This document shows, piece by piece, positions 1-18,916 of a stretch of 20,094 nt of DNA. The notes under the pieces were generated by a model. The model was not told the DNA's origin, ran no database searches, and saw nothing but the letters and a program-made list of their open reading frames with translations. Position 1 is the first letter of the stretch. Every line of letters starts with the position of its first letter. This DNA is from a virus. The stretch covers positions 2,364-22,457 of IMG/VR virus record IMGVR_UViG_3300023278_001734; one strand, given 5' to 3'. The position numbers were made by a program, and so were the translations under genes.

Positions 1-1109
1 ACATGTTTTGGATGGACCTGGATCGCGTGGAGTGGGAGACAACGGAGGCGGGGATCCTGATTCCGGACAGCGTGCGCATGAAGTGCCCGGCCTGTGAGTA
101 CCAGAACGAGGAGCGGCACAAGGGAAAAATGTTGGACGAGGGCCAGTGGGTGGCGCAGAACAAGGACGGGGAATACCCGTCGTTCAGGATTAATGATCTG
201 TACAAACCTACGCCATGGGGCTCCTGGATTAAATACGTGAAAGGGTATCGAAAGGCCAAGAAATCTGTACACACGTACAAGGTGTGGGTGAATACCAAGC
301 GGGCGCTGCCGTGGAAAGACAGGGAAACCAGCGCCGATCACGACGTGCTGTACAATCGTCGCGAGGAATACGCGGCCGAAGTTCCGGATCCGGTGATGAT
401 CCTCACGGCTGGCGTGGACGTCCAGGACGATAGACTCGAGGCTGAAATCGTTGGGTGGGGTGCCGGGTACGAAAACTGGGGAATCACACGCGTGTGCATA
501 TGGGGGAATACTGCGCTGCCACAGGTCTGGAAGGACTTGGACGCCTGGCTGCTGCAGTCGTGTACTCGGTCGGACGGCAGCAAAATGTACGTGGCTGCCA
601 CGGGCGTGGACCCGCTCGGACACCGTACCGACGAGGTATACCGGTGGTGCAAGCCAAGGGAGTTCCGACGTATATTCCCGTGTTACGGTGCTGGTGGAGA
701 CGGGAAACCGATCCTCGGACGGGTAACGACGCGACACAAATCAGGGTGTTACCTGTTCCCGATCGGTTCCGATACGTGCAAGGACGAGATCATGTCCCAG
801 TTGCTGATCGAGGAGCCTGGACCGAATTGCTGTCACTTCCCGAAAAACGGTGAGTACGACAAGGAGTTTTTTAAGCAGGTCACGGCAGAGTCTAAGGTGC
901 GGGAAATAAAAGACAATCGGGAACGCAACGTATGGAGAAAGACCAGGGTTCGAAATGAAGCGCTTGACATCCGACAGGAAAGTAGGGCAGCATTGGAAAT
1001 AACGAGTGTGGATTTAGACACATTGACGGAACCGTACCTGGCCCAACCCGTGGATCTCACCCCACGAAAAACCAGAAAAAACAATAAGCGTAGGGGAATA
1101 CAACCGTGA
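1..1109 (+). CDS. Terminase large subunit, lambda GpA type (5' partial)
   Basis: This is the C-terminal part of the packaging motor that cuts concatemeric DNA and pumps it into proheads. The reading frame is open at the left edge, so the ATG at position 3 is probably internal and the ATPase domain lies outside the window. Counting from that Met, a CPAC pair (C28/C31) looks like the second half of the zinc-binding motif seen in GpA proteins. The nuclease domain follows: GVDVQDDRLE with D139, the VDPLGHRTDEVY segment with D203, and NEALD with D322. These form a plausible acidic metal-binding triad in the usual order. The usual S/G residues after D203 are P-L here. The tail after residue 350 is basic. 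It overlaps the next gene by 4 bp (GTGA) and starts the lambda-like head module. The family call is firm; the catalytic residues are assigned by motif position only. Confidence 0.93.
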   Translation, partial: MFWMDLDRVEWETTEAGILIPDSVRMKCPACEYQNEERHKGKMLDEGQWVAQNKDGEYPSFRINDLYKPTPWGSWIKYVKGYRKAKKSVHTYKVWVNTKRALPWKDRETSADHDVLYNRREEYAAEVPDPVMILTAGVDVQDDRLEAEIVGWGAGYENWGITRVCIWGNTALPQVWKDLDAWLLQSCTRSDGSKMYVAATGVDPLGHRTDEVYRWCKPREFRRIFPCYGAGGDGKPILGRVTTRHKSGCYLFPIGSDTCKDEIMSQLLIEEPGPNCCHFPKNGEYDKEFFKQVTAESKVREIKDNRERNVWRKTRVRNEALDIRQESRAALEITSVDLDTLTEPYLAQPVDLTPRKTRKNNKRRGIQP

Positions 1110-1342
1110 GTAGTTGTGATCCAATGACCAGCGACGATGCTACGGAGATGTTTCTCCTGTACAAGTCTGCGTTAAAGGCGATCAAGGGTGGCCAGAGCTA
1201 CACGATCGACGGTCGCAGCCTCACGCGTGCGGATCTCGCAGACGTTTCCAAACAATTCCAATACTGGCGTGGGCAGGTGGAGCGGCTGTGCCTGACTGGC
1301 AACGGTGGGCCCACAGTACGGAGGGTGATACCTCATGGGTAG
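1106..1342 (+). CDS. gpW-like head-tail joining protein
   Basis: This is a 78-residue protein with a GTG start that overlaps the terminase stop (GTGA). In lambda, gpW is a small protein that binds below the portal and completes the DNA-filled head before tail attachment. Here a helical segment (LYKSALKAIKGG), a short beta hairpin (QSYTIDGRSLTRAD) and a second helix (LADVSKQFQYWRGQVERL) match the alpha-beta-beta-alpha layout of the gpW family. Its position between terminase and portal is the lambda A-W-B order. It overlaps the portal gene by 8 bp. The role rests on motif shape plus synteny. Confidence 0.82.
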   Translation: MSSCDPMTSDDATEMFLLYKSALKAIKGGQSYTIDGRSLTRADLADVSKQFQYWRGQVERLCLTGNGGPTVRRVIPHG

Positions 1343-3302
1343 AGGCGCAGGACTACGACGTGGTGGGGCGCTGGCTTACGCGGGTGCGAAGCTCCTTACG
1401 TCGATGGCCAGTCAGTACTTCGGGGTAACGACTCCGAACGGTGCGTACCAGGGGGCCAGCTCCACACGCCAGGCGATGCAGGCGTGGCGCACGTCCAACG
1501 CGTCTCCGGATGTAGATGTTCTGTCGAACTTGCCGATCCTGCGGTCACGCTCCCGCGACCTGATACGGAACGTCCCGACCGCCAGCGCGGCGATCAAGAA
1601 AAAAACAATAAACGTAGTATCCACGGGCCTGAAGTACAAGCCGAGACTGAACGCAGAACGCTTGGGAATCACTCGCGAGCAGGCACGCCAGAAGGAAAAA
1701 GAGATCGCGTACGTGTTCCATCGATGGGCGAAGTCCAAACATTCGGACGCAGCGCGCACGAATAATTTCTACCAGAACACGGCGCTAGTGTACCAGAGTA
1801 TGCTGTCCAGTGGTGATGTGTTTTCTCTCTTGCCGTTTATTAATCGGCCGACGTCGTACTTGGACGTAGCTGTAAAAGTTGTTGAATCTGATCTGTGCAG
1901 GGATCCACACTTTAACCTGCCTACGAGGGAACTTGTCGGTGGCATCGAGCAGGACGAGTGGGGCGCGCCGGTTGCGTACTGGTTCGCGAAGCACCACATC
2001 CAGGATGTTAACATCGAGGACAGCATCGAGAACATGATCAGGGTTCCGGCGTACGGTGAAGAGACCGGGCGCGAGATGGTCCTGCACGTGTTCGGGTTAG
2101 ATCGTCCTGGCCAGCGTCGTGGAGTTCCACTCCTTGCCGCAGTGATTGAACCACTGAAACAGCTAGGGCGGTATCGCGACGCTGAACTGATGGCTGCTGT
2201 TGTGGCTGGAATGTTTACCGTATTTGTTAAGACACTTACGGGAGCGCCGAGCAGCCAGGGCAACGTGCCAGACTCTGCGAAAGTTGGAAACGCTCCCAGC
2301 GTGGCAGATAAGGATCCCGGCGACTATGAGATGTCCTACGGTGGCATCGTGGATCTGGGACAGGACGAGGAGATTCAGACAGCGAACCCAGGTAGACCGA
2401 ACCCGAATTTTGATCCGTTCACGCATTCGATTTTAAAGGAGGCCGGTGGCCACCTCGGAATCGGTGTTGAGATGATACAGGGTTATTATGCCAGCAGCTA
2501 CACTGCAGCACGCGCTGCGTTCCTGGATGCGTTCGCTGGGTTTAAAGTTGAGTTCGCGAACTTGAAAGCCGATTTCTGTGAGCCTGTAAAAAATACAGTA
2601 ATGATGAACGCCGTCCTGCGTGGGAAACTGGATCTTCCTGGTTATCTTGACGACCCAGAGATCAGAGAGATGTGGGAGGATGGCGACTGGGTTGGTGTGG
2701 CTCCGGGGCAGTTGGATCCGCTGAAGGAAACTATGGCGTACGCGCTGAAAGTTAAAGAGCAGTTGAAATCCAGAAGGACTGCAGCCCAGGAGAGCGACGG
2801 CGAGGACTACGAGGAAGTGGTGGAAGAACTGGCAGAGGAGAAGGCCTGGCGCGAAGAGAGAGGCATTCCACTTGAGAAAGAAATCGAAGCCGGAGCCGTA
2901 GCCGATGGGATGCCACAGGCTGACGATCAGGATCCGGAGTCTGGTTCTGAAGAGGACGAGATGCAGGGCGAGGAGCTGACGCCACTGCAGGGCGAGGAAC
3001 TGGAAGACGCTGCGAAAACCGCCGACACGTTTGGCGTCCTGACTAGAGCCGGCGCCGCCACTCCACAGAAGTCTGACGAGGGATTTTTCAGGAAACTTTT
3101 CAGGCTGCCAACGGCGTCCAAAGAGGTAGAGGAGCTTTGGGATAGTTCTGGAGGATATCGCCGGCCGATTACTCTGGCCAAAGAGGAAGCCCAGACGGCT
3201 GAAAAGGTCGACGAAAACGAAGTAAGCGAAGAGGGTGCCGATGTCTCCACGTCGTCACCAGTACCAGGACAGGAAACAAACGGAGGATCCACCGATGACT
3301 AA
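1335..3302 (+). CDS. Portal protein, lambda gpB family, with long acidic C-terminal extension
   Basis: This protein would form the dodecameric ring at the unique capsid vertex through which DNA enters and leaves. The N-terminal part has family-like segments: RSRSRDLIRNVPTASAAIKK near residue 70, NVVSTGLKYKPRL near 95, SGDVFSLLPF near 158, and GRYRDAELMAAVVAGMF near 280. The family end motif, VEELAEEKAWREERGIPLE, falls near residue 500. At 655 residues it is longer than lambda gpB (about 530). The extra stretch of about 135 residues is acidic and low in complexity, with a tandem repeat of QGEEL (24-bp period) and a short basic patch (FFRKLFRLP). The ATG at 1335 overlaps the preceding gene. The last 8 bp overlap the protease start, so the two are probably translationally coupled. 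Confidence 0.92.
   Translation: MGRGAGLRRGGALAYAGAKLLTSMASQYFGVTTPNGAYQGASSTRQAMQAWRTSNASPDVDVLSNLPILRSRSRDLIRNVPTASAAIKKKTINVVSTGLKYKPRLNAERLGITREQARQKEKEIAYVFHRWAKSKHSDAARTNNFYQNTALVYQSMLSSGDVFSLLPFINRPTSYLDVAVKVVESDLCRDPHFNLPTRELVGGIEQDEWGAPVAYWFAKHHIQDVNIEDSIENMIRVPAYGEETGREMVLHVFGLDRPGQRRGVPLLAAVIEPLKQLGRYRDAELMAAVVAGMFTVFVKTLTGAPSSQGNVPDSAKVGNAPSVADKDPGDYEMSYGGIVDLGQDEEIQTANPGRPNPNFDPFTHSILKEAGGHLGIGVEMIQGYYASSYTAARAAFLDAFAGFKVEFANLKADFCEPVKNTVMMNAVLRGKLDLPGYLDDPEIREMWEDGDWVGVAPGQLDPLKETMAYALKVKEQLKSRRTAAQESDGEDYEEVVEELAEEKAWREERGIPLEKEIEAGAVADGMPQADDQDPESGSEEDEMQGEELTPLQGEELEDAAKTADTFGVLTRAGAATPQKSDEGFFRKLFRLPTASKEVEELWDSSGGYRRPITLAKEEAQTAEKVDENEVSEEGADVSTSSPVPGQETNGGSTDD
3282..3286 (+). 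promoter_or_regulatory. Shine-Dalgarno site fixing the protease start
   Basis: GGAGG lies 8 bases upstream of ATG 3295, inside the 3' end of the portal gene. The frame is open further upstream (an ATG at 3235), but that start has no comparable site and would overlap the portal gene by 68 bp. The start at 3295 is therefore preferred. Confidence 0.75.
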
Positions 3303-4680
3303 AATGATCGACGTCCACATGGGAACCCAGGAACAGACGCCCATGATGCTGGTGGCACCACAGGCACGGTCCAAAATGATGGAGGCCCTGCAGTTTAAGC
3401 CGTCTGAAATGATGAAGGCCGGATGGGATGGCGGATGGACCCAGGGAGAGAACGTCCGCAGTTATCAGCGTGGTAACGTGGGGATCATCGAGATAAATGG
3501 CCTACTGTGGACCAGCGACGACCGAACTGCGTATTTTATGGGGCTGACGACTTATGAATCGGTAGCTCTGGAGTATGGCAGGATGTTGGATACCGAGGGT
3601 ATCGACGGTTGTATTCTTGCGATAAATTCCCCCGGGGGGCTGGTGGCAGGATGCAGCGAGTTGGGCGATATGATATTTAATACGCGCGATCAGTTCCCCC
3701 TCGGTGTTGCCACCCACGTTATGGGGATGGCAGAGAGTGGTGGGTACTGGCTGGGGTCTTCGTCTCACAAAATTTTTATTGAACCGACGGCAATGCTGGG
3801 ATCCATTGGCGCCGTACTTGGACTTTATAAGGGGCCGGCTGTTGACGAGGACGGGGGGAAGGAAGTTGTTTTCATTTCCACCGTATCCCCGCTGAAGGCA
3901 GTAGATCCGGAAACTAAGGAGGGGGCCAGCGAGTACCAGTCGAACGTGGACGCAGTGGGAGAGGTTTTCGTGGAAACAGTCGCGCGCAATCGCGGCGTAT
4001 CGGTTGAAACCGTCCTCTCCGACTTCGGACAGGGTGGAGCCCTCGTCGGAATTAACGCAGTGAACGCAGGCATGGCCGATGGAATCGGCAGCCTTGAATC
4101 AGTAATAACAGAAATGCGATCTGCCGTTGGCGGGTCACAGATCACGGAAGGAACAAGTATGTCTATCACATCACAGAAAAAAGTCATTGCCGCCAACGGA
4201 ACCCAGACGCCAGCTCCCGCAGCACCCGCTGCTGCAGCCGTTGCCGCGCCCGTTGCTGCACCCGTTGCAGCTGCTCCCGCAGTCGTGGCCACGCCTGCCC
4301 CCGCTGCTGCTGTTGTGGCAGCAGTGCCCAGCATCGAGGAAGAGCGCGCGCGCACTTCGAGGATCCTGGCCGCCGTGGCAGGTACCGGCCTGGACGCCAA
4401 GGCCAGCGAGTACATCGCTGCCGGAACGAGCCTCGCGCAGGTAAATCAGGATCTGGTTGCTCACCTGAAAACGCAGAGGCCGGCCGAGGTTGCTGCGAAC
4501 CAGGGGACTCTCGCGTCCATGGCACAGGAATCTGGCGGCGCTGCGCAGGTTGCGAACGGCAACGGCGGAATCGGTGGCGGCGACGCGCAGGCAGTGGAAA
4601 AACAGGCTCTCAACTCAGCTTGGGCCGCAGGTGCCCAGACGGCGATCGCCAAAGGTGGCGCTAAAAAGGAACGGGTGTAA
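3295..4680 (+). CDS. S49-family head maturation protease with fused C-terminal scaffold (lambda gpC type)
   Basis: This is a 461-residue protein, taking ATG 3295 as the start. The protease domain covers about residues 55-275. It has the SPGG motif (AINSPGGLVAG), a nucleophile segment MAESGGYWLGS with Ser148, and Lys201 in STVSPLKAVDP. The spacing of 53 residues between them fits the Ser-Lys dyad of SohB/lambda C-type S49 enzymes. In lambda-like phages this enzyme is packed into the prohead, where it cleaves the scaffold and portal and then itself. After residue 288 comes an Ala/Pro/Val-rich linker and a helical region (EEERARTSRILAAVAGTG), matching the scaffold part of gpC. An internal start at 4159 probably yields the free scaffold. 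The gene lies between portal and decoration genes, as in lambda. Confidence 0.92.
   Translation: MTKMIDVHMGTQEQTPMMLVAPQARSKMMEALQFKPSEMMKAGWDGGWTQGENVRSYQRGNVGIIEINGLLWTSDDRTAYFMGLTTYESVALEYGRMLDTEGIDGCILAINSPGGLVAGCSELGDMIFNTRDQFPLGVATHVMGMAESGGYWLGSSSHKIFIEPTAMLGSIGAVLGLYKGPAVDEDGGKEVVFISTVSPLKAVDPETKEGASEYQSNVDAVGEVFVETVARNRGVSVETVLSDFGQGGALVGINAVNAGMADGIGSLESVITEMRSAVGGSQITEGTSMSITSQKKVIAANGTQTPAPAAPAAAAVAAPVAAPVAAAPAVVATPAPAAAVVAAVPSIEEERARTSRILAAVAGTGLDAKASEYIAAGTSLAQVNQDLVAHLKTQRPAEVAANQGTLASMAQESGGAAQVANGNGGIGGGDAQAVEKQALNSAWAAGAQTAIAKGGAKKERV
4148..4152 (+). promoter_or_regulatory. Internal Shine-Dalgarno site for nested scaffold
   Basis: AAGGA (within GGAAGGA) lies 6 bases before the in-frame ATG 4159, inside the protease gene. 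It is a well-placed ribosome binding site where none would be needed unless an internal product is made. Confidence 0.65.
4159..4680 (+). CDS. Nested scaffold protein (Nu3-like), in frame within the protease gene
   Basis: An in-frame ATG at 4159 with its own Shine-Dalgarno would give a 173-residue protein identical to the C-terminal third of the protease. It contains the Ala/Pro-rich linker (from TPAPAAPAAAA) and the following helical region. It ends in a Gly-rich stretch and a basic tail (AKGGAKKERV). In lambda, Nu3, the head scaffold, is made in exactly this way from inside gene C, and free scaffold is needed in large molar excess over protease. The sequence shows the start signal and composition; actual synthesis is inferred by analogy. 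Confidence 0.68.
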   Translation: MSITSQKKVIAANGTQTPAPAAPAAAAVAAPVAAPVAAAPAVVATPAPAAAVVAAVPSIEEERARTSRILAAVAGTGLDAKASEYIAAGTSLAQVNQDLVAHLKTQRPAEVAANQGTLASMAQESGGAAQVANGNGGIGGGDAQAVEKQALNSAWAAGAQTAIAKGGAKKERV

Positions 4681-4682
4681 TT

Positions 4683-5327
4683 ATGCAAGATCTTGGAACA
4701 AGAACACGAGAAAACGGGCGGTCCGGGGATCTGAAAATTGTAACCCAGCCACGCACGATCGCCGAGAGCATGACGCTCCTGCGGTTTGCTGCCCTGGGTG
4801 TTGTTAAATTCGCGGCCGGCGCGATCACTCCGAACGTTGGAAACACCGGCGACGGTGTTATGTCTGCGTTCGCGCTGGCAGCAGGCGGTCCCCCGAAAAT
4901 CGGGGACTACAGCGCGGTATGCGTGGCAGCTGCTGCGAACGCTGGCACGTTCAACGTATTCGATCCGGACGGCGTCCTGATCGGCGTTGCCACGGTTGCC
5001 GTTACCTTCGCAGGTGGTGGCGTCACATTCCTGATCGGCGACGGCGCTGCCGACTTCATCGTCGGTGACAGCTTCCTGATGGCGATGGGAGCTGGCAGTG
5101 GACAGGCGAAACTTCTGGACAACACTGCCACGGACGGAACCCAGCTCCTGGATTCCATCCTGTCCGAGGACGTGACCACGGGTGTCGGCGTTACACAGGT
5201 TACCACTGTGTACGAAACCGGAGAATTCAACGAAGGTGAGATCACATTCGAGAACGGGACCGTGGCCGAATACAAAGCCGCCGCCCGCGACTTGGGGATC
5301 TTTTTCAAAGCAGCAGTGCCCCAATAA
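4683..5327 (+). CDS. Head decoration protein, gpD-like, with large internal insertion
   Basis: The product (214 residues) has the ends of a lambda gpD-type decoration protein. The N-terminal part is RSGDLKIVTQ...TLLRFAALGVV. The C-terminal half (AKLLDNTATDGTQLLDSILSEDV, then TGEFNEGEITFENG) resembles the gpD beta-tulip core. gpD trimers cap the three-fold sites of the expanded capsid and stabilise it against DNA pressure. Between about residues 45 and 138 sits a Gly/Ala/Val-rich insertion (GDYSAVCVAAAANAGTFNV, DPDGVLIGVATV, GDGAADFIVGDSFLM) that roughly doubles the size relative to lambda gpD (about 110 residues). The gene starts 2 bp after the protease stop, with AAGGA upstream. Its place between protease and major capsid genes supports the call. 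Confidence 0.85.
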   Translation: MQDLGTRTRENGRSGDLKIVTQPRTIAESMTLLRFAALGVVKFAAGAITPNVGNTGDGVMSAFALAAGGPPKIGDYSAVCVAAAANAGTFNVFDPDGVLIGVATVAVTFAGGGVTFLIGDGAADFIVGDSFLMAMGAGSGQAKLLDNTATDGTQLLDSILSEDVTTGVGVTQVTTVYETGEFNEGEITFENGTVAEYKAAARDLGIFFKAAVPQ

Positions 5328-5348
5328 GGGGAGTAAAGGAACACAGTC

Positions 5349-6392
5349 ATGATTGATATTTTTGATCCCGCAGTAATGACCGAAGCCCTGATCACGAACT
5401 TCCCTCCGTTCATGTTCTTGACGAACATGTTCTTCAGCACGAAGAAACAGCACGGAACGAAGAATATCGACTTCGATATTCAGAAGGGCAAACGCCGGTT
5501 GGCGCCTTTCGTGAATCGTATGCACGAGGGAAAATTGGTCGAGAAAACCAATTTCAAAACCCAGCGTTTTGAGCCCCCGTACATTAAGCCCAAAATGGTT
5601 ACGGACGCCGAGGAGATCCTTAAGCGTCTCCCCGGTGAAGCCGTGTACGTGCAGGACGGGTCCAACGCTCCGTCCGCGCGAGCGAACCGGATCCTCGGCG
5701 AGGACGTCACCGATATGCAGATGGGTCTGAACCGTCGCATCGAGTGGATGTCTGCCAAGGCGTTGTTCACTGGCAAGGTTCCCGTGAAAGGCGAGGGCGT
5801 GGACTATGAAATTGACCTCCTGTACGGATCCGCGCAGAAGGTAACGCTACTCACCACCGCGCGCTGGTCGGAAACATCCACCGCTGATCCGATTGCCGAC
5901 CTCACGAACTGGAAACGCCAGATCAAGCAGCTGACCGGACTGATCGCCAAGGACGTTGTCCTGGGGCGCAACGCGTCGATCTCCTTGGAAGACAACGCGA
6001 AGATTGCCGAGAAGCTCGACAATCGCCGGACAGAAGCCGGTTTGTTGAAATATGCTGATCTTCCAGAGGGTGCCGTGTACATCGGCACGCTGACCAAGCC
6101 AGGCGTTGATCTGTTCACGTACGACGAATGGTACGTAGACGACGACACGCAGAACGAATTCGAGATGGTTCCTGAAAATCAGGTTCTGATCGGCGCCACG
6201 TCTGCTCGCTGCCGTCGTCACTACGCGGTGATCTCCGACGTAGAGGCTGGCAACTGGGAAGTCGAAACGTTCGTTAAGTCCTGGATTGTTCCGGATCCCA
6301 GTGCTCGCTTCGTAATGTTGCAGTCTGCGGTAATCACTGCCATCGAGCAGCCCGAGGCCTTCATCGTTGCGACCGTGCAGGACGCTGAGTAA
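5349..6392 (+). CDS. Major capsid protein, lambda gpE family
   Basis: This 347-residue protein is close in length to lambda gpE (341). Family-like features include IDIFDPAVMTEAL at the N-terminus, FLTNMFF, and KKQHGTKNIDFDIQKGKRRLAPFVNR. Also present are GKLVEKTNFKTQRFEPPYIKPK and the central GEDVTDMQMGLNRRIEWMSAKALFTGK. gpE has the HK97 fold and builds the icosahedral shell. A Shine-Dalgarno AAGGA sits 8 bases before ATG 5349. The gene is separated from the decoration gene by 21 bp and from the next gene by 34 bp, the largest true gap in the head module. That gap holds no convincing terminator or promoter. Confidence 0.95.
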   Translation: MIDIFDPAVMTEALITNFPPFMFLTNMFFSTKKQHGTKNIDFDIQKGKRRLAPFVNRMHEGKLVEKTNFKTQRFEPPYIKPKMVTDAEEILKRLPGEAVYVQDGSNAPSARANRILGEDVTDMQMGLNRRIEWMSAKALFTGKVPVKGEGVDYEIDLLYGSAQKVTLLTTARWSETSTADPIADLTNWKRQIKQLTGLIAKDVVLGRNASISLEDNAKIAEKLDNRRTEAGLLKYADLPEGAVYIGTLTKPGVDLFTYDEWYVDDDTQNEFEMVPENQVLIGATSARCRRHYAVISDVEAGNWEVETFVKSWIVPDPSARFVMLQSAVITAIEQPEAFIVATVQDAE

Positions 6393-6426
6393 AAAACACC
6401 GGTAACCCCGGAGAAACGAGTTTGAT

Positions 6427-6774
6427 ATGAAAGTAAGAATCACAGACGGGACTGCAGTTTTTGAAGGCAAAGAAATCACCAGCGAGAGCGGCGTGGTCGA
6501 TTTGCCCGAGGATGCTGTAGAGTCCCTGCAGGCTTCCACGATTGCAAGCGTTGAAATCGTGGGCGATGCCAGCGAGAGCGGCGTGGTTGAAACCACTGTC
6601 GAGAGCGGTACCGAGGGTAACCCAGGAGCGATCGACACCAGTGGCCCCAACGAGGGGACCGTGGCGTGGTTACGGCTGCAGCTGGACCAGATGGGCGTGG
6701 AGTTCGATCGCGAACTTCGCAAGGACGATCTGGAAGAGCTGTATCTGGAATCCTTGGAAGCGAGGAACGATTAA
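6427..6774 (+). CDS. Small acidic protein at the lambda FI position, HeH/LEM-like C-terminus
   Basis: This encodes a 115-residue acidic protein that I do not recognise at full length. Residues 1-60 are acidic and beta-prone. Residues about 80-112 (GTVAWLRLQLDQMGVEFDRELRKDDLEELYLE) have the helix-extended loop-helix pattern of HeH/LEM/SAP-like modules, which occur in small phage proteins at this locus. It sits between the capsid gene and the FII-like gene. That is where lambda FI, an accessory packaging protein that helps terminase bind proheads, is encoded. The segment SESGVV occurs twice, 30 residues apart, from a 19-bp DNA repeat. The start is ATG 6427; a GGAG lies 13 bases upstream, so the ribosome site is weak. 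The role is inferred from position. Confidence 0.6.
   Translation: MKVRITDGTAVFEGKEITSESGVVDLPEDAVESLQASTIASVEIVGDASESGVVETTVESGTEGNPGAIDTSGPNEGTVAWLRLQLDQMGVEFDRELRKDDLEELYLESLEARND
6479..6587 (+). repeat. 19-bp direct repeat pair, 90 bp apart
   Basis: The 19-base word CCAGCGAGAGCGGCGTGGT occurs at 6479-6497 and again at 6569-6587. The 90-bp period keeps the reading frame and duplicates the peptide SESGVV. It probably reflects a partial internal duplication in the FI-position gene. Confidence 0.8.
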
Positions 6775-6777
6775 ATT

Positions 6778-7143
6778 ATGAATACGTTCAGGGACCAGCT
6801 GGATCAGGATTTGCTAGACAACCACTTCAATGTCACTGAATTCGGGGAAGACTCCGAGGGCAGTGGCGAGGTGGTTGGCCTGACGTATCGTCCTGCCAGC
6901 GGTGCCCCTGAAAGTGTCATACAAGGATTATTCGACGCTTCGTTCGCTAACGGGTCCACCGAGGCCACTGTGGACGTAAACGACCACAGGCCGCACCTGA
7001 CCTGCAGGCAGGTGGACATTGAAGGCGAGAGGCTGCACAGCGATGATCGCTTCGTGATTCAGGGCAAGGAGTACAAGCCGACAGAAGACCAGAGCAACGA
7101 GATGGGCGTGATTCGCGCGTTCATGTTCGAGGTTCCGGCATGA
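6778..7143 (+). CDS. Head-tail attachment protein, lambda FII-like
   Basis: This 121-residue protein starts at ATG 6778, 3 bp after the previous stop. The N-terminal helix (FRDQLDQDLLDNHFNVTEFG) is followed by a beta-rich body. The end, DDRFVIQGKEYKPTEDQSNEMGVIRAFM, matches the pattern in FII-type attachment proteins, where the body ends in a strand pair, a turn and a final strand. FII sits on the completed head and forms the docking surface for the tail. Its position, last in the head module and just before the tail terminator, supports this. It overlaps the next gene by 4 bp (ATGA). Confidence 0.68.
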   Translation: MNTFRDQLDQDLLDNHFNVTEFGEDSEGSGEVVGLTYRPASGAPESVIQGLFDASFANGSTEATVDVNDHRPHLTCRQVDIEGERLHSDDRFVIQGKEYKPTEDQSNEMGVIRAFMFEVPA

Positions 7144-7727
7144 TCAGAATACTGGAACTCAGGGCGCACATTGTTCAGCGTCTCAAGGATGCTGCCATTC
7201 CGCGAATCGATGACAATGTATTCCCTGATCGCTCCCTGAAGTATCTGCCGGATGAACTTCCTGCCATCGGGGTTTATACCCGGAAAACGCCTTTTCAGGG
7301 CGCTGACCGGCAGCCCAGATGGATGCAGGCAGAGACGCAGCTGGTGGTGGAGTCTATCGTGCAGGGAGAGTTCGAGGGGATCAGTGTCGCAGACCAGAAC
7401 AGCCTGTTCACGCAGGCGATCGTCGACGCCTTGATCTACCCTTGGGACTCTGAAATTTTAGATCCCGGAGAAGAGGGATCGCAGGGGCCGTTCGATGGTC
7501 TCGCCGACGACGTGTATTTAACGGACGTTTCGAGCGATACCAGCACAGAGGGCGGTCAACTGATGGGTGGTGAGGCTGTCACGTTCACAATTGACTGGCA
7601 GGTACTGCTCCCGAACTTGGAACCCCCGGATACGTTCGCGCGCATGGGGGTAAAAATATTAACGCCAGAGGACGCACACGCAGAGGCTCTGGATATCGAG
7701 GACGTGGATCCACTGGATCCCGTGTAG
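7140..7727 (+). CDS. Tail terminator protein (Mu gp37 / gpU-like position)
   Basis: This 195-residue protein starts with LELRAHIVQRLKDAAIPRIDDNVFPDRSLKYLPDELPAIGVYT. That is the usual opening of tail terminator proteins: a helix, then a V(F)P-R strand, then LPAI-VYT. A terminator ring caps the completed tube and sheath and fits it to the head connector. The gene precedes the DUF2635 and sheath genes as gp37 does in Mu. The C-terminal 30 residues are acidic (EDAHAEALDIEDVDPLDPV). Two GGATCC sites lie 9 bp apart near the stop. The start overlaps the previous gene by 4 bp. The assignment rests on pattern and synteny. Confidence 0.7.
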   Translation: MIRILELRAHIVQRLKDAAIPRIDDNVFPDRSLKYLPDELPAIGVYTRKTPFQGADRQPRWMQAETQLVVESIVQGEFEGISVADQNSLFTQAIVDALIYPWDSEILDPGEEGSQGPFDGLADDVYLTDVSSDTSTEGGQLMGGEAVTFTIDWQVLLPNLEPPDTFARMGVKILTPEDAHAEALDIEDVDPLDPV

Positions 7728-7736
7728 GGTGATATT

Positions 7737-7952
7737 ATGATGGGTAGACAGGTAGTAATTCCGGCCAAAGGTGCCAGTGTACTGAATCCGAAAACCGACC
7801 AGCCCTTGGGAGAGAAAGGGGATCGAGTGATTTGGAGCAGCTACTGGGAACGGCGGTATGCAGAAAAATCGATCACCCTGGGCAAGGGTCCGATCAAAGA
7901 TAAACTGGAGGCCAAAGCAAAGGCCCTTAAAGCAATGAAAAAGGAAGGTTAA
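7737..7952 (+). CDS. DUF2635 protein (Mu gp38-like)
   Basis: This small protein (71 residues) contains VVIPAKGASVLNPKTDQPLGEKGDRVIWSSYWERRYAEKSI. It fits the DUF2635 pattern of a short K/R-P strand, a D/N-P-x-T-x-x-x-L turn and S-x-Y-W-x-R-R-x-x-D/E. The family is almost always encoded between the tail terminator and the sheath of Mu-like phages, as here. Its function is unknown to me. The C-terminal 20 residues are lysine-rich. Two adjacent ATG codons (7737 and 7740) are possible starts. The site GGGTG at 7727-7731 sits 5 or 8 bases upstream, so 7740 is also plausible. Confidence 0.78.
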   Translation: MMGRQVVIPAKGASVLNPKTDQPLGEKGDRVIWSSYWERRYAEKSITLGKGPIKDKLEAKAKALKAMKKEG

Positions 7953-7955
7953 ACC

Positions 7956-9428
7956 ATGACTATCTCATTCAACGAAATCCCATCAGATTCTCTGGTGCCT
8001 TTCTTTTACATCGAGTTCGATAACTCGATCGCTGACGAGGGATCCGTTCTGGTCCCGTGGCACGTGCTCCTAATCGGCCAGAAGATCGCAGCCGGTACCG
8101 CCGTCGCCAATACCATCGTGGAGATTTCCGCCGATGGACAGGCGGACGTGCTGGGAGGTGACGGATCTGTAGCCGCACGTCAGGCAGAGGCGTATCGGTC
8201 GAAACCCGGCCGTATGCGTATGTCTCTCCTGTTCCTCGACGACGATGGCACGGCTGTTGCTAGGACCGTTACGGTAACCTACACGGGAGCCGGGGACGCC
8301 AGCGATTCCGAATCCCTGTACATCGGTGCGCGCAAGGCTACCGTTGGAACCGAAAATCTTGACACACCGGAAGACCTCGCGGGCGCGATGGTTCTGAAGG
8401 TAAACGCGATCAAAAACGTTCCTTGCGTTGCTTCGAACGTCGCCGGCGTGATGACCCTGACGTTTAAAAACAAGGGCGCGCTGGCCAACGGCGTCGAGGT
8501 ATCCAACGATTACAACGGAGAGACGGACGCCTCTGGATTTACCACGGTGATCGCTGACGGTGTTGCCGGTTCTGTGGACCCTGACCTTACCACCGAGGGC
8601 GTGGTAGGTATCATTGGAGACCAGTGGTTTCAGGCTATCGGGCAGCCGTATCAGGACGCCACGAACATCGCGTACATCGATACCGAACTGGAAAACCGGT
8701 GGGGACCCACCCGCCAGATCGGTGGCATCCAGTACGTGGCCAAAAACGACACGTTCGCGAACGTGCAGTCGTGGGGCGCTGCTCTGAACAGCCCGTTCAC
8801 GTGCCCGCTGAACGCAGAAAACCTGCCGACTCCGACAGAGGAATATGCAGCGGAGATCTGCGCAGAGGTTGCGAACGCTGCGAACATCGACCCAGCGCGT
8901 CCGTTCCAGACTCTGGCGCTGGCGCACACACTGTCTCCTGTTAAAGCCGACAGGAATACCGGCGAGGAAAACGGTCTGCTCCTGAAGGCCGGCGTCTCCA
9001 CGTTCACCGTAGACGCAGGTGGTGGAGTTCGGATCCAACGTTTTGTAACCAGTTACAAAACGAGCGCTACCGGTGCGACGGACAAATCGTATCGGAACGT
9101 GAACACCGTGTACACGCTGCAGGCGATTCGGTACGATTTCCGCACGTACATGCAGAACAAGTACCCACGTCACAAGCTCGCCAGCGACGGAAACAACTAC
9201 GGAGCCGGACAGGCGATCATCACTCCCAAGGTTGGCAAGGCGGAGGCCATTGCCAGGTTCAAAGTGTGGGAGCGTGACAACGGCTGGGTGGAAGGACTGC
9301 AGGCGTTCAAAGAGAGCCTTGTTTGCGAGCGCAACACTGGCGACGTGGACCGGCTGGACTGGCTCATGAAACCGAATCTCATTAACCAATTCCGGATCGC
9401 TGGCGTACAAATCCAGTTCATCCTTTAG
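7956..9428 (+). CDS. Contractile tail sheath protein (Mu gpL family)
   Basis: The protein has 490 residues, a usual size for Mu gpL-type sheaths. The N-terminus ISFNEIPSDSLVPFFYIEFDNS is characteristic. VLLIGQKIAAGTA follows near residue 32. The core has FQAIGQPYQDATNIAYIDTELENRWGP and ARPFQTLALAHTLSPV. The C-terminal domain holds YNRN-like spacing replaced by DKSYRNVNTVYTLQAIRYDFRTYM and ends in RFKVWERDNGWVEG with FRIAGVQIQFIL. Sheath subunits form the outer tail cylinder that shortens during injection and drives the tube through the envelope. GGAAGG lies 7 bases before ATG 7956. The stop codon overlaps the Shine-Dalgarno of the tube gene. This is one of the clearest calls in the window. 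Confidence 0.95.
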   Translation: MTISFNEIPSDSLVPFFYIEFDNSIADEGSVLVPWHVLLIGQKIAAGTAVANTIVEISADGQADVLGGDGSVAARQAEAYRSKPGRMRMSLLFLDDDGTAVARTVTVTYTGAGDASDSESLYIGARKATVGTENLDTPEDLAGAMVLKVNAIKNVPCVASNVAGVMTLTFKNKGALANGVEVSNDYNGETDASGFTTVIADGVAGSVDPDLTTEGVVGIIGDQWFQAIGQPYQDATNIAYIDTELENRWGPTRQIGGIQYVAKNDTFANVQSWGAALNSPFTCPLNAENLPTPTEEYAAEICAEVANAANIDPARPFQTLALAHTLSPVKADRNTGEENGLLLKAGVSTFTVDAGGGVRIQRFVTSYKTSATGATDKSYRNVNTVYTLQAIRYDFRTYMQNKYPRHKLASDGNNYGAGQAIITPKVGKAEAIARFKVWERDNGWVEGLQAFKESLVCERNTGDVDRLDWLMKPNLINQFRIAGVQIQFIL

Positions 9429-9437: not shown

Positions 9438-9800
9438 GTGGGAACACCAAACTTAAGAGCAGGAAAATTGTTCTGTAAGGCCAACGGTACGCGACTGCGC
9501 GCCAAAGGGGCCTTTACGTACAACTTGGGCAAAGACAAAAAGTCTAAAATCCTAGGCGTGGATACCGTGCATGGGGAAAAAGTCGAGCCCGTGGTCCCGT
9601 TCATCGAGGGTAAAATCTCCGATGGTAGCGACGTGGATCTGGCTTTGTTGATCGAGGCAGAGGGGACATTTACCCTCGAACTCGCCAACAATAAAATAAT
9701 TGTATTAGAAGGCGGCGTGTATGCTGCCGACGCCGACGTCGATACCGACGAGGGCGAAATTCCGGTTCGCTGGGAAGGCGAATCGTGTGAGGAGGCATAA
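9438..9800 (+). CDS. Tail tube protein (Mu gpM family)
   Basis: This 120-residue protein has a GTG start after AGGAGG. Family features include GTPNLRAGKLFCKANGTRLRAKGAFTYNLGKDKK at the N-terminus, the central VDTVHGEKVEPVVPFIEGKISDGSDVDL, and LIEAEGTFTLELANNKIIVLEGGVYA. The C-terminus, DEGEIPVRWEGESCEE, closes with the usual VRWEG-type strand. The protein stacks as hexamer rings to form the inner tube through which DNA passes. It follows the sheath as in Mu (L-M). The spacing to the chaperone gene is 3 bp, with GAGGAGG inside its own last codons. Confidence 0.93.
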   Translation: MGTPNLRAGKLFCKANGTRLRAKGAFTYNLGKDKKSKILGVDTVHGEKVEPVVPFIEGKISDGSDVDLALLIEAEGTFTLELANNKIIVLEGGVYAADADVDTDEGEIPVRWEGESCEEA

Positions 9801-9803
9801 TTG

Positions 9804-10154
9804 ATGTTCAAGAAAAAAGACAATGACACCGGCCAGGAGATGGACGAGGGTAAAGAAGAAAAACCCGAAGCCAAGAAAAACACTCTTCCTCTGGTAATTG
9901 ACTTGGAATACCCGTACGAGTACGCCAAGAAAACTGTAACCCAGTTGATTTGCGATCGCCGGCCACCCATGAGAACGATCAAGGCGGTTATGTCTGCAGG
10001 CGATGACGACGCGGAGGTTATGGAGATCATTTACGAACACCTCTTCGACAAGGTCCCTGCTGAAAGTGATATAATCGACGCGGAGGACGGAATCAAGGCC
10101 TTCGAAAAGGTGTTTGATTTTTTTCCACACCTGGCGGGGGGGGAGGATGCCTAG
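9804..10154 (+). CDS. Tail assembly chaperone (Mu gp41-like), frame-0 product
   Basis: The unshifted product (116 residues) resembles the E/gp41/gp14 tail chaperone group. A charged N-terminus (KKKDNDTGQEMDEGKEEKPE) is followed by LPLVIDLEYPYEYAKKTVTQLICDRRPPMRTIKAVMSAGDDDAEV and a helical C-terminus ending PHLAGGEDA. These proteins bind the tape measure protein before tube polymerisation and are usually absent from the mature virion. GAGGAGG at 9789-9795 sits 8 bases before ATG 9804; TTG 9801 is a weaker in-frame option. Two slippery heptamers near the 3' end probably give a longer -1 frameshift form. The gene lies between tube and tape measure, as expected. Confidence 0.85.
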   Translation: MFKKKDNDTGQEMDEGKEEKPEAKKNTLPLVIDLEYPYEYAKKTVTQLICDRRPPMRTIKAVMSAGDDDAEVMEIIYEHLFDKVPAESDIIDAEDGIKAFEKVFDFFPHLAGGEDA

Positions 10155-10303
10155 GCTGGCCAGATGGCTGGGAGTCTGACCTTTCTGCGATACTCGGATT
10201 CTTTGGATACTCCTCCGGCGTGGAGGAGTGGACGTCACGTGATTTCATATTTTATCGAGATCGCGCTGAACAGTGGTATGAGATAAACAAGCCGAAGGGA
10301 TAG
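9804..10303 (+). CDS. Tail assembly chaperone, predicted -1 frameshift fusion product
   Basis: If ribosomes slip back one base at G_GGG_GGG (10136-10142) or at T_TTT_TTT (10118-10124), translation leaves frame 0 before the TAG at 10152. It then continues in the -1 frame to TAG 10301, giving 166 residues in either case. The extension after 10142 is 53 residues. It is well-formed protein: GCLGWPDGWESDLSAILGFF, then GYSSGVEEWTSRDFIFYRDR, then AEQWYEINKPKG. It has no ATG and no start with a Shine-Dalgarno, so it is hard to express except by slippage. It ends 9 bp before the tape measure start and its stop overlaps that gene's Shine-Dalgarno. Lambda G/GT and many other tailed phages make their long chaperone form this way. 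Efficiency cannot be judged from sequence. Confidence 0.78.
10118..10124 (+). promoter_or_regulatory. In-register slippery heptamer T_TTT_TTT
   Basis: Seven T bases are read as (GA)T TTT TTT in frame 0, a perfect X_XXY_YYZ slip register encoding D-F-F. A -1 slip here leads into the same open -1 frame as the G-run site 12 bases later. Confidence 0.5.
10136..10142 (+). promoter_or_regulatory. In-register slippery heptamer G_GGG_GGG
   Basis: Eight G bases run from 10136 to 10143. In frame 0 they are read as (GC)G GGG GGG G(AG), so the heptamer 10136-10142 is in slip register, 10 nt before the frame-0 stop at 10152. Re-pairing of both Gly tRNAs after a -1 slip is perfect. Only weak pairing (GCC-AGAT-GGC, around 10159-10168) is seen just downstream. 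Confidence 0.7.
10209..10229 (+). other. Perfect 8-bp RNA hairpin with embedded Shine-Dalgarno-like arm
   Basis: ACTCCTCC pairs exactly with GGAGGAGT across a 5-base loop (GGCGT). It lies within the -1 frame extension of the chaperone, 66 bases after the G-run slip site and about 84 bases before the tape measure start. The 3' arm contains GGAGG. There is no T run, so it is not a typical intrinsic terminator. A role in pausing or in blocking ribosome entry is possible but unproven. Confidence 0.55.
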
Positions 10304-10312
10304 GGAGAGTCG

Positions 10313-12403
10313 ATGCCCCCAAGACTGCCAGACGTCAAACAGCGAGTCCAGATTACCGACGGCTATAAAAAGCCGCTGGCTGACATTCGCCGGATGATCG
10401 GTAAAACCAAGGGACAGTTCGTCCAACTCCGTAAGACAATCAAGGAAGTCAACGATCCGAAAGGGTTCAAAGGCCTCAAGAAGTCGATCAAGGCCGTCAA
10501 ACAGGGCGTGGCAGGGATGTCTCAGGGGTTCCAGACGTCCGCACGCAGAGCCCGCACGTTCATCGGTATCGCATCGCTCGGTATCGGCGGCCTCGCGTTT
10601 TCGATTAAAAAGCTCATGGGATCGTTCTCGCTGGTGGAGGACGCAGAGGCGTCGTTTACCCCGCTACTCGGGAGCGTGAACAAGGCCAAGGAACTCGTCG
10701 GGGCCCTGAACAAAACGGCAGCCAGCACGCCGTTCCAATTCGAAAATCTGTCCAGCGTGGCGCTGCAGCTGCTGCCGTCTATGAACGGTAATATCAAGGA
10801 AACGATCAGCCTTACACGTATGCTGGGAGACACGGCCGGAGGCAATGCACAGCGGCTGGACTCCGTCACGCGTGGGTACAACAAAGCACTGATCAAGGGA
10901 AAAGTTGACCTCGAGGGCCTGAATATTATCGCAGAGGCAGGGGTGCCCATATTCCAGGAGCTGGGAAAACAACAGGGTCTGTCTGGCGCCAAACTGTTCA
11001 AGGCTATTTCTGCGGGCAAGATAAAAATAACGGACCTGACCCAGACGTTCCAGACGATGACCAGCAAGGGCGGTCTATTCTACAAGGGCATGGAGATCGC
11101 GAGCAAGACGCTCACCGGTCAGATCTCCACGCTGCGCGACAATATTACTCTGGCCGCAGCGGACGCCGGGTCCACTCTGGCTCCGATGCTTAAGGGCATG
11201 GTGGGGAATCTCACCAAAATGATCCAGAAGAACCGACCACAGATCAAAAAGTTCTTTCAGGAGCTGGCGAAAAAGATCCCAGGGTACATCCAGAATATAA
11301 TCAAGTTCTTTAAAAAGCTCCGGGATACCGTGGGGCCGGTGTTTAAATTCATTCTCAAGGTGATCAACGCCGTAGGGTGGCAGAAATCTGCGATGTTTGG
11401 ATTCGGAGCATGGATTGGCGGGCCGTTCCTGCTGTCGCTAAAGAATATCATCCCGGTGGTGACCGGGATGATCGGCACCATACAGGGCGCGATCCCCGTG
11501 ATCAAAATGATGAAATTCGCGCTCTTTGGATTCGGGGGCCCCATTGGGTGGATAATTCTGGGAGTTACGGCCCTGACCGCAGCGATCATCATATTCAGGA
11601 AAGAACTGTCCCCCATATGGGTGGCGTTCAAGGACGGAATTAATCCGGTACTGATGGAGGCCAAGGCGCTATTCGGGGACCTGAAGGCCATGGTGGTGGA
11701 GATGTCTGGCGCGGTGGGACAGGCGGGCCTCGCTGGCGCGTGGAGCCAGCTGGGTGGCGTCTGGGTACAATCCATCGCATGGTTTACGAAGCTGGGCGTA
11801 CGCATGGCCACGTTGCCGCTGCGCGGTATCATATCAAGTGTTCGAGCGTTCGCGATCACGATGACGTTCCTGCTGAAAACAGTTAAGCGGTTCACCCAGT
11901 ATCTGGCTAAGAAATTCCGGCCCGAACTGGAGTGGCTTGGGAAAAAATGGGACTGGCTGGGTGGCAAAGCCAGAGCAGCCATAAAACCGATCAAGGACCT
12001 GATGAGCCTCGCGCGCAAGGCCGGGGAGTTAATCACGGGACCCAAGGGCAAGGAGATCCAGACCGGTGGCAGGGACCTGGTCCCTGGAAAGAAAACCAGC
12101 GGCGCCGGAGTCGGACGTCGTGAGGGAATCGGCGGCCGCAGCCTGACAGACCAGATTTCGCAGATCGGGGATCCGACGTACGCAAAGCCGACGCTGACGG
12201 AGAAGGTGCAGACAGGTGGCGGCCTCGGTAAAATGGACACGGCTGCCCTGTTGCGTGCCACAGGTGGAGGGAATACCACTGTGACCAATAACGCGAAAGT
12301 CGAATTCGATTTTAAAAACATGCCTCGCGGCGTGGAAACTAACATTTCAGGAGACGCTGACATCGATACCAATACCGGTCAGGCGTTCGGGGTGCCAGGC
12401 TGA
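10313..12403 (+). CDS. Tail tape measure protein
   Basis: This is a 696-residue protein. It has a basic N-terminus and a hydrophobic segment at about 83-105 (IGIASLGIGGLAFSIKKLM). A conserved tape-measure domain at about 108-290 includes EDAEASFTPLLGSVNKAKEL, STPFQFENLSSVALQLL, RLDSVTRGYNKALIKGKVDLEGLNIIAEAGVPIF and LTGQISTLRDNI. A long hydrophobic region at about 361-428 probably inserts in the host membrane during DNA entry. The C-terminal 120 residues are Gly/Lys-rich. Tape measure proteins set tail length and leave ahead of the DNA. By the rough rule of 0.15 nm per residue, the tail would be about 100 nm (inference). No lysozyme or peptidase domain is visible. AGGGAG lies 5 bases before ATG 10313 and overlaps the stop of the chaperone extension. 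It overlaps gene N by 1 bp. Confidence 0.92.
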   Translation: MPPRLPDVKQRVQITDGYKKPLADIRRMIGKTKGQFVQLRKTIKEVNDPKGFKGLKKSIKAVKQGVAGMSQGFQTSARRARTFIGIASLGIGGLAFSIKKLMGSFSLVEDAEASFTPLLGSVNKAKELVGALNKTAASTPFQFENLSSVALQLLPSMNGNIKETISLTRMLGDTAGGNAQRLDSVTRGYNKALIKGKVDLEGLNIIAEAGVPIFQELGKQQGLSGAKLFKAISAGKIKITDLTQTFQTMTSKGGLFYKGMEIASKTLTGQISTLRDNITLAAADAGSTLAPMLKGMVGNLTKMIQKNRPQIKKFFQELAKKIPGYIQNIIKFFKKLRDTVGPVFKFILKVINAVGWQKSAMFGFGAWIGGPFLLSLKNIIPVVTGMIGTIQGAIPVIKMMKFALFGFGGPIGWIILGVTALTAAIIIFRKELSPIWVAFKDGINPVLMEAKALFGDLKAMVVEMSGAVGQAGLAGAWSQLGGVWVQSIAWFTKLGVRMATLPLRGIISSVRAFAITMTFLLKTVKRFTQYLAKKFRPELEWLGKKWDWLGGKARAAIKPIKDLMSLARKAGELITGPKGKEIQTGGRDLVPGKKTSGAGVGRREGIGGRSLTDQISQIGDPTYAKPTLTEKVQTGGGLGKMDTAALLRATGGGNTTVTNNAKVEFDFKNMPRGVETNISGDADIDTNTGQAFGVPG

Positions 12404-18034: not shown

Positions 18035-18916
18035 ATGGGCATTCCAGAAGGCGCAGACAAACGGATATTTTTCCCGATCAAGAATAACGATCCGTTCACG
18101 TTGTTAGAGGGCCAGTTCGGCATTACCGATGTGGCCACTGGCAGCAAGGCGTATTATCGACCGCATAGGACCCCGGCAGAAACTGAGGCGGGAGATCCTG
18201 TTCCTGATCCTATTCTATTCGGGACGAACGTAACCCCACAGAACTCAGTAGGCGAAGTACCCGCAGGACTGATTAACGGTTCTAATACCGTGTTCACCAC
18301 ATCGCAGGACGTTCAGAATCCAGCAACGGCCCTATTGGATGTTAACGGGGTTCTCAGGCAGGATCTGACCATCGTTGGAGACACCATCACGCTGGACTTC
18401 GCACCAGCTGCTGGCAGTAGTATCTATATCGTATTCGGGATTTCGCTTACAGGAGGGGTTTCGACGTTCAACGGACGATCCGGCACCGTGCTCCCGCTTG
18501 CTGGCGACTATCCCACGTCGCTAACCAGTGACGATTCTGACTGGGGGGGGCCGACAACTAAAGATTCGTTGAACGCTTCCAAGGCAGCGGTTGGTTCGTT
18601 ATCTTCACCCAGCGGTGAGGTAGTAAACGTTGCGTCATTTCAGGCCACGGCAGCGAGTCGCATACTTTATGTGGACCGAACCGTAACCGGAGAGTGCGCG
18701 ATTGAAATTTCCAGTGCATTAATCGCGTTGGCTCAAGTTGATCTGATAATCATCGATCGTGGTGCAAACGCAAGCATAAATAAAATTATCATTACCACCG
18801 AGGGTGCCGAGACAATCAACGGGGATTCCGCGGGCGCTGAGATAATTGCAGACCGTGGGGTTGTAAGGTTGCTCATGGATGGAAATAACGTGCACATTAC
18901 AGGAGGTGCAGCATGA
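18035..18916 (+). CDS. Tail fibre protein
   Basis: This 293-residue protein starts 3 bp after the gp48-like stop, with GGAGG 8 bases upstream. Residues 1-80 probably attach to the baseplate. Residues about 80-138 (LINGSNTVFTTSQDVQNPATALLDVNGVLRQ ... GDTITLDFAPAAGSSIYIVFG) form a beta domain common in phage virion proteins. STFNGRSGTVLPLAGDYPTSLTSDDSDW (about 143-170) is a recognisable fibre repeat motif. Residues 180-293 are beta-rich and end in ITGGAA. It probably binds the host receptor; the target is unknown. A run of eight G (18543-18550) sits after W170. The protein is short for a fibre, and no fibre chaperone gene follows directly. Base composition becomes more AT-rich from about 17900. 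Confidence 0.75.
   Translation: MGIPEGADKRIFFPIKNNDPFTLLEGQFGITDVATGSKAYYRPHRTPAETEAGDPVPDPILFGTNVTPQNSVGEVPAGLINGSNTVFTTSQDVQNPATALLDVNGVLRQDLTIVGDTITLDFAPAAGSSIYIVFGISLTGGVSTFNGRSGTVLPLAGDYPTSLTSDDSDWGGPTTKDSLNASKAAVGSLSSPSGEVVNVASFQATAASRILYVDRTVTGECAIEISSALIALAQVDLIIIDRGANASINKIIITTEGAETINGDSAGAEIIADRGVVRLLMDGNNVHITGGAA
18543..18550 (+). repeat. G8 homopolymer tract inside the tail fibre gene
   Basis: Eight consecutive G bases encode part of W170-G171-G172. Loss or gain of one G puts a stop codon within about 3-10 codons, which would remove the last 120 residues. The last seven bases are also in register as G_GGG_GGG for a -1 ribosomal slip, which would end after three more codons at TAA. 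Confidence 0.75.

Follow-up and report, generated by a model that had tools for sequence, protein, structure and literature searches.

How is the interval between the tail assembly chaperone gene and the tape measure gene of this virus expressed, and which of two homopolymer runs near the end of the chaperone gene could bring ribosomes into it? The window, that is, the whole stretch of 20,094 nucleotides analysed here, corresponds to positions 2364-22457 of IMG/VR record IMGVR_UViG_3300023278_001734, which comprises 23,954 bases in total. Its head genes were found to encode a gpA-type terminase, a lambda-family portal, an S49 protease and capsid E, together with a decoration-protein-D-like gene product that scored slightly below the Pfam cut-off. 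The tail genes encode a Mu-type sheath (37% identical to the Mu sheath), tube, tape measure, DNA circularisation protein, a gp44/GpP-like protein and Gp48. Within positions 3-9428, lambda-like head genes adjoin a Mu-like contractile tail module. The chaperone gene has the tube gene (PF10618) on its 5' side and the tape measure gene (PF20155) on its 3' side, the position characteristic of the P2 E/E+E' type (Table 1).

The earlier note on this DNA had proposed a programmed −1 frameshift in the chaperone gene with two in-register slip sites. The reading frames it described were reproduced: the frame-0 stop at 10152 leaves a gap of 158 nt to the tape measure ATG at 10313, and the −1 frame is open for 61 codons, between stops at 10115 and 10301-10303, ending 9 nt 5' of that ATG. 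Markov simulations of this region gave an open stretch of 61 −1 codons in 6.5% of cases. T7 was located in register as described; the G run was found to be eight bases long, not seven, and bases 1-7 of it are in register. Translation gave a 166-aa fusion for either slip point, containing 59 new −1 residues after a slip at T7 and 53 after a slip at G7. Among random-codon tails, an in-register T6N occurred in 0.2%, a G6N in 1.3% and both together in 0.005%; when the frame-0 protein was kept constant, these values were 9.7%, 6.6% and 0.7%, respectively. A second G8 run was observed at 18543-18550, in an unrelated gene (18035-18916) in which it forms part of the codons Trp-Gly-Gly. As G_GGG_GGG is also in register there, at 18544, the heptamer by itself is no rare feature of this genome.

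The extension is without a usable start, its sole ATG, GTG or TTG codon being GTG 10220, which lacks a Shine-Dalgarno sequence. This bears on the alternative that the extension is made by internal initiation, with G8AGG serving as the Shine-Dalgarno sequence. G8AGG does resemble such a sequence, and low-level initiation was suspected 3' of G_GGG constructs (PMC4066793), but GTG 10220 lies beyond the conserved WPxxW motif, and ATG 10147, in the third frame, would give a 10-aa peptide; internal initiation is thus scarcely credible.

Table 1. Features of the tail chaperone locus, in window coordinates.
Feature	Positions	Strand	Basis
Tail tube gene, upstream neighbour of chaperone	9438-9800	+	PF10618, E=3.9e-24
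Tail assembly chaperone, frame-0 product, 116 aa	9804-10154	+	ORF, ATG 9804 to TAG 10152-10154
Shine-Dalgarno-like AGGTG upstream of slip site, candidate stimulator	10108-10112	+	family-level motif excess
T_TTT_TTT, likely −1 slip site	10118-10124	+	in register (GA followed by T_TTT_TTT); T_TTT_TTN equivalent in 93/140 loci
27-nt insert, STPGGGGGC in −1 frame, between slip site and conserved −1 domain	10124-10150	+	slip-to-P spacing
−1 extension, predicted T-like domain, 59 residues past T7 slip	10124-10303	+	hhalign 96.5%; HMM E=2e-4
Predicted stem-loop downstream of slip site, with arms 10134-10142 and 10180-10188; candidate stimulator	10134-10188	+	−29 kcal/mol, z about −1.5
G8 run; bases 1-7 are the proposed second heptamer G_GGG_GGG (10136-10142)	10136-10143	+	sole in-register G_GGG_GGN among 140 loci
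Tape measure gene, downstream neighbour of chaperone	10313-12403	+	PF20155, E=1e-20

Because direct searches with the chaperone failed, relatives were collected by sheath and tube profiles. Viral contigs gave no match when scanned with the chaperone, extension or sheath as single proteins or searched for the exact pattern T7-spacer-G8; genome contigs scanned with the sheath alone, and phages searched by tblastn with the chaperone and with the fusion, gave none either. All counts refer to a set of 140 tube-anchored loci, the window included. The tape measure protein of the window gave no match in the contigs of two of the loci (L092 and L096), nor was any match to the window found in an Rfam scan or in NCBIfam. 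An unbroken chaperone of 154 aa was considered for L096 and ruled out, as this locus carries a 92-aa frame-0 ORF, T_TTT_TTG and the −1 domain. At about 6852-8335 of a Jiella pelagia prophage (L034), the chaperone gene appears, by eye, to be broken near its start by a transposase-like ORF.

An in-register T_TTT_TTN was detected towards the 3' end of the chaperone frame in 93 of the 140 loci, the last base being G in 55, C in 21, T in 9 and A in 8. In these loci the heptamer lies at a median distance of 39 nt from the frame-0 stop, and the −1 extension has a median length of 51 residues. In 80 of 91 loci, no more than 40 nt separate the −1 stop from the start of the tape measure gene, and the gap between chaperone and tape measure genes was seen again across the relatives. 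In the window, likewise, T_TTT_TTT stands 36 nt from the frame-0 stop, and a homologous extension ends beside the tape measure start. The aligned extensions share the motif WPxDW...A..FHFxPSEL....DL.FW. The window extension was matched to those of the relatives by hhalign (96.5%, E=9.6e-10). An HMM of the −1 domain, built without the window sequence and run on 451 six-frame segments of the window, gave the −1 stretch as the clear top hit (E=2e-4; runner-up, 0.76). As judged from this homology, the −1 frame of the window is coding, for a predicted T-like domain. Since T_TTT_TTN and the −1 domain are both found in the relatives, T7 represents a conserved slip site of the P2 E/E+E' type. Synteny, together with a conserved slip site and a homologous −1 domain shared with about 90 relatives, lends strong support to a programmed −1 frameshift in the chaperone gene. 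The alignment of homologues that the earlier note had called for thus bore out the conservation of T7 and of the −1 extension, and did not bear out that of G7, which is present in none of the other loci.

The same set of loci bears on two further explanations. Transcriptional rather than ribosomal slippage, at T7 or G8, could yield fusion mRNAs: both are homopolymer runs, and the under-representation of UUUUUUU in all frames of E. coli-type genes has been linked to possible transcriptional slippage (PMC4066793). However, 84 of the 93 loci have six T residues followed by a different base, always in the X_XXY_YYZ register, which is a better fit to two-tRNA slippage. Transcriptional slippage is disfavoured because the conserved feature is an in-register six-T heptamer and not a long homopolymer, and we consider it very unlikely. 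The frame break could also be an artefact of sequencing or assembly: were G8 in truth G9, chaperone and extension would be joined in a single frame. Homopolymers are error-prone and a single added G merges the frames, but the same −1 layout is present in about 90 relatives without G8, and T7 remains in register at the family position; such an error seems extremely improbable.

The frame-0 protein was assigned to the chaperone family by hhalign against the chaperones of 12 relatives (90%, E=1.4e-6), and its sequence-only match, to phrog_166, was weaker (E=0.012). PF10109 (Phage_TAC_7; 'E, or 41 or 14') was matched by the four relatives scanned (L002, L005, L096 and L103). The window chaperone gave no match to PF10109 at E<=1 and did not reach its curated cut-off. 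About 25 additional charged residues at the N-terminus (MFKKKDNDTGQEMDEGKEEKPEAKKN), encoded at 9804-9880, stand ahead of the part that aligns with the relatives.

The claim of a second slip site at the G run was not upheld. Besides the window, none of the 140 loci carries an in-register G_GGG_GGN. G8 is located within an insert of nine residues, STPGGGGGC, that is absent from nearly all relatives. The distance from the slip to the conserved P of WPxDW is three residues in 77 of the 92 aligned loci and twelve in the window; elsewhere, spacings of twelve and of eight were each found in one locus (L210 and L118 between them). A second, non-overlapping in-register heptamer before the frame-0 stop was present in 2 of the 93 loci against 9.9 expected by codon shuffling, a deficit that we read only as 'not enriched' because the −1 coding overlap may explain part of it. 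A second heptamer is thus neither conserved nor enriched in the relatives. Overlapping heptamer pairs such as GGGTTTTTTN were observed in 11 loci. The two loci with a second heptamer are the window and L175 (tube 60% identical), in which T_TTT_TTG at 3713 is followed, 15 nt on, by an in-register C_CCA_AAG formed by codons of a WPK stretch. C_CCA_AAG is the strongest motif in E. coli (PMC4066793). Heptamers ending in GGN are in E. coli on average less shift-prone than those ending in UUN or AAN, and G_GGG_GGU without a stimulator showed the lowest value, 0.018% (PMC4066793), rates that can serve only as a guide for the present virus. The selected motifs above 0.10% include U_UUU_UUU and omit G_GGG_GGG (PMC4066793), an omission that is weak evidence because the list also demanded under-representation. 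No tail chaperone with two slippery sites or with a G7 site was found in the literature searched.

If both heptamers work, frame-0 ribosomes that have passed T7 would have another opportunity for a −1 slip, at G_GGG_GGG, and the proportion of fusion would thereby be increased or adjusted. In favour of this, G7 stands exactly in register, and a slip there opens the same −1 frame and yields the same 166-aa fusion. The family spacing of three residues to the WP motif is also approached more closely from G7 (six) than from T7 (twelve), and L175 likewise has a second heptamer. Nevertheless, the G heptamer is confined to this sequence among the 140 loci, within an insert that is almost specific to the lineage; heptamers of its class slip poorly in E. 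coli, and it is also in register in the unrelated gene at 18544, so that the joint action of both heptamers is unlikely. In a related two-step slip, the inserted G_GGG_GGG would offer a second chance after the ancestral T_TTT_TTT, and the paired G8 would also stimulate T7. This is distinctly unlikely; if true, one lineage-specific insert would tune the ratio of chaperone to fusion. G8 is more likely to represent glycine linker codons or a stem arm than a slip site.

Possible stimulators of the T7 slip were examined at the family level. In 51 of the 93 loci, against 24.4 expected, a Shine-Dalgarno-like motif precedes the slip heptamer by 6-17 nt. This excess of about twofold was also observed with amino acids fixed, by synonymous redraw (49/91 against 25.5 +/- 3.4 expected) and after dereplication (26/51 against 13.1 +/- 2.5). 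Downstream, the 60 nt beginning 5 nt past the heptamer formed the most structured position tested in the family (mean z −1.14 +/- 0.15); against synonymous redraw, z at this position was −0.68 +/- 0.17, compared with −0.21 for the control. The family signal for downstream structure is partly due to coding. The predicted stem of the window, which carries G8 in its 5' arm, is only a suggestion because its own signal is modest, and the four nearest relatives, folded to a consensus, gave no stem clearly common with the window. The inverted repeat AGGTGT/ACACCT around T7 (10108-10113 and 10127-10132) was considered as a stimulator and set aside because its arms lie within or against the ribosome sitting on T7.

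These observations altogether make it highly probable that the locus uses a −1 ribosomal frameshift of the P2 E/E+E' type at T7, to which G8 contributes little or no slippage. In the mechanism that we infer, most ribosomes would terminate at 10152 and release the 116-aa chaperone, and a minority would move back one base at T_TTT_TTT (10118-10124), probably aided by AGGTG upstream and perhaps by the downstream stem. The slipped ribosomes would translate the −1 frame to 10303 and produce the 166-aa fusion carrying the conserved T-like domain. If the lambda pair gpG/gpGT is a guide, chaperone and fusion may both bind the tape measure, the T-like domain recruiting the tube protein. G8, inside the glycine-rich insert between both domains, may double as a stem arm and would support little or no slippage. 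Counting against frameshifting at T7 are the post-slip insert, which is unusual for the family, the missing PF10109 match and weak phrog_166 match of the window chaperone, and the modest stem signal.

The −1 frameshift of tail chaperones is well known as a kind, from P2 (PMC3091744), the Pseudomonas Mu-like phage PaMx73 (PMC4378225), lambda and many others, and the virus analysed here, divergent and uncultivated, is very probably a further tailed phage that carries it. With about 90 aligned relatives, the slip site, the −1 domain and the candidate stimulators become open to comparison. The insert with G8 is a detail; among the by-products, the most useful are the statistics on stimulators across the family: the excess of Shine-Dalgarno-like motifs and of structure suggests that P2-type tail-chaperone frameshifts may be stimulated in the manner of dnaX and IS elements. 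This contrasts with the P2-like phages KS5, KS14 and KL3, which were reported to be without downstream hairpins (PMC3091744).

P2 produces a 91-aa E and a 142-aa E+E' by slippage at TTTTTTG (PMC3091744). As in the window, P2 (T_TTT_TTG) and its relatives KS5, KS14 and KL3 have the chaperone between tube and tape measure, a six-T heptamer near the 3' end of the chaperone gene, and a −1 extension of about 50 residues that stops near the tape measure start (PMC3091744). The window differs from them in Z = T (T_TTT_TTT), in the nine-residue glycine-rich insert after the slip and in AGGTG upstream. SfV-type phages and the Bordetella phages PBb001 and PBb002 (L005, L002 and L011) share with the window the Mu-like contractile tail module and the homologous −1 domain; their slip heptamers are T_TTT_TTC and T_TTT_TTG, respectively. 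Unlike the window, they have neither G run nor insert, and their chaperone of about 90 aa is without the charged N-terminal extension. The −2 frameshift of Mu gp41 (GGGGGCGA) resembles the present case in tail module and gene position. Mu-type loci carry GGGGGCGA and an open +1/−2 frame without an in-register T heptamer, whereas in the window GGGGGCGA is absent and the +1/−2 frame closes at 10177, which does not fit a −2 frameshift. Lambda is a siphophage, and its slip heptamer, G_GGA_AAG, differs from that of the window. Its gpG and gpGT, a chaperone and its −1 extended form, may nonetheless be viewed as analogous to the arrangement in the window, and in lambda the two are made at a set ratio for tail assembly (PMC5009743).
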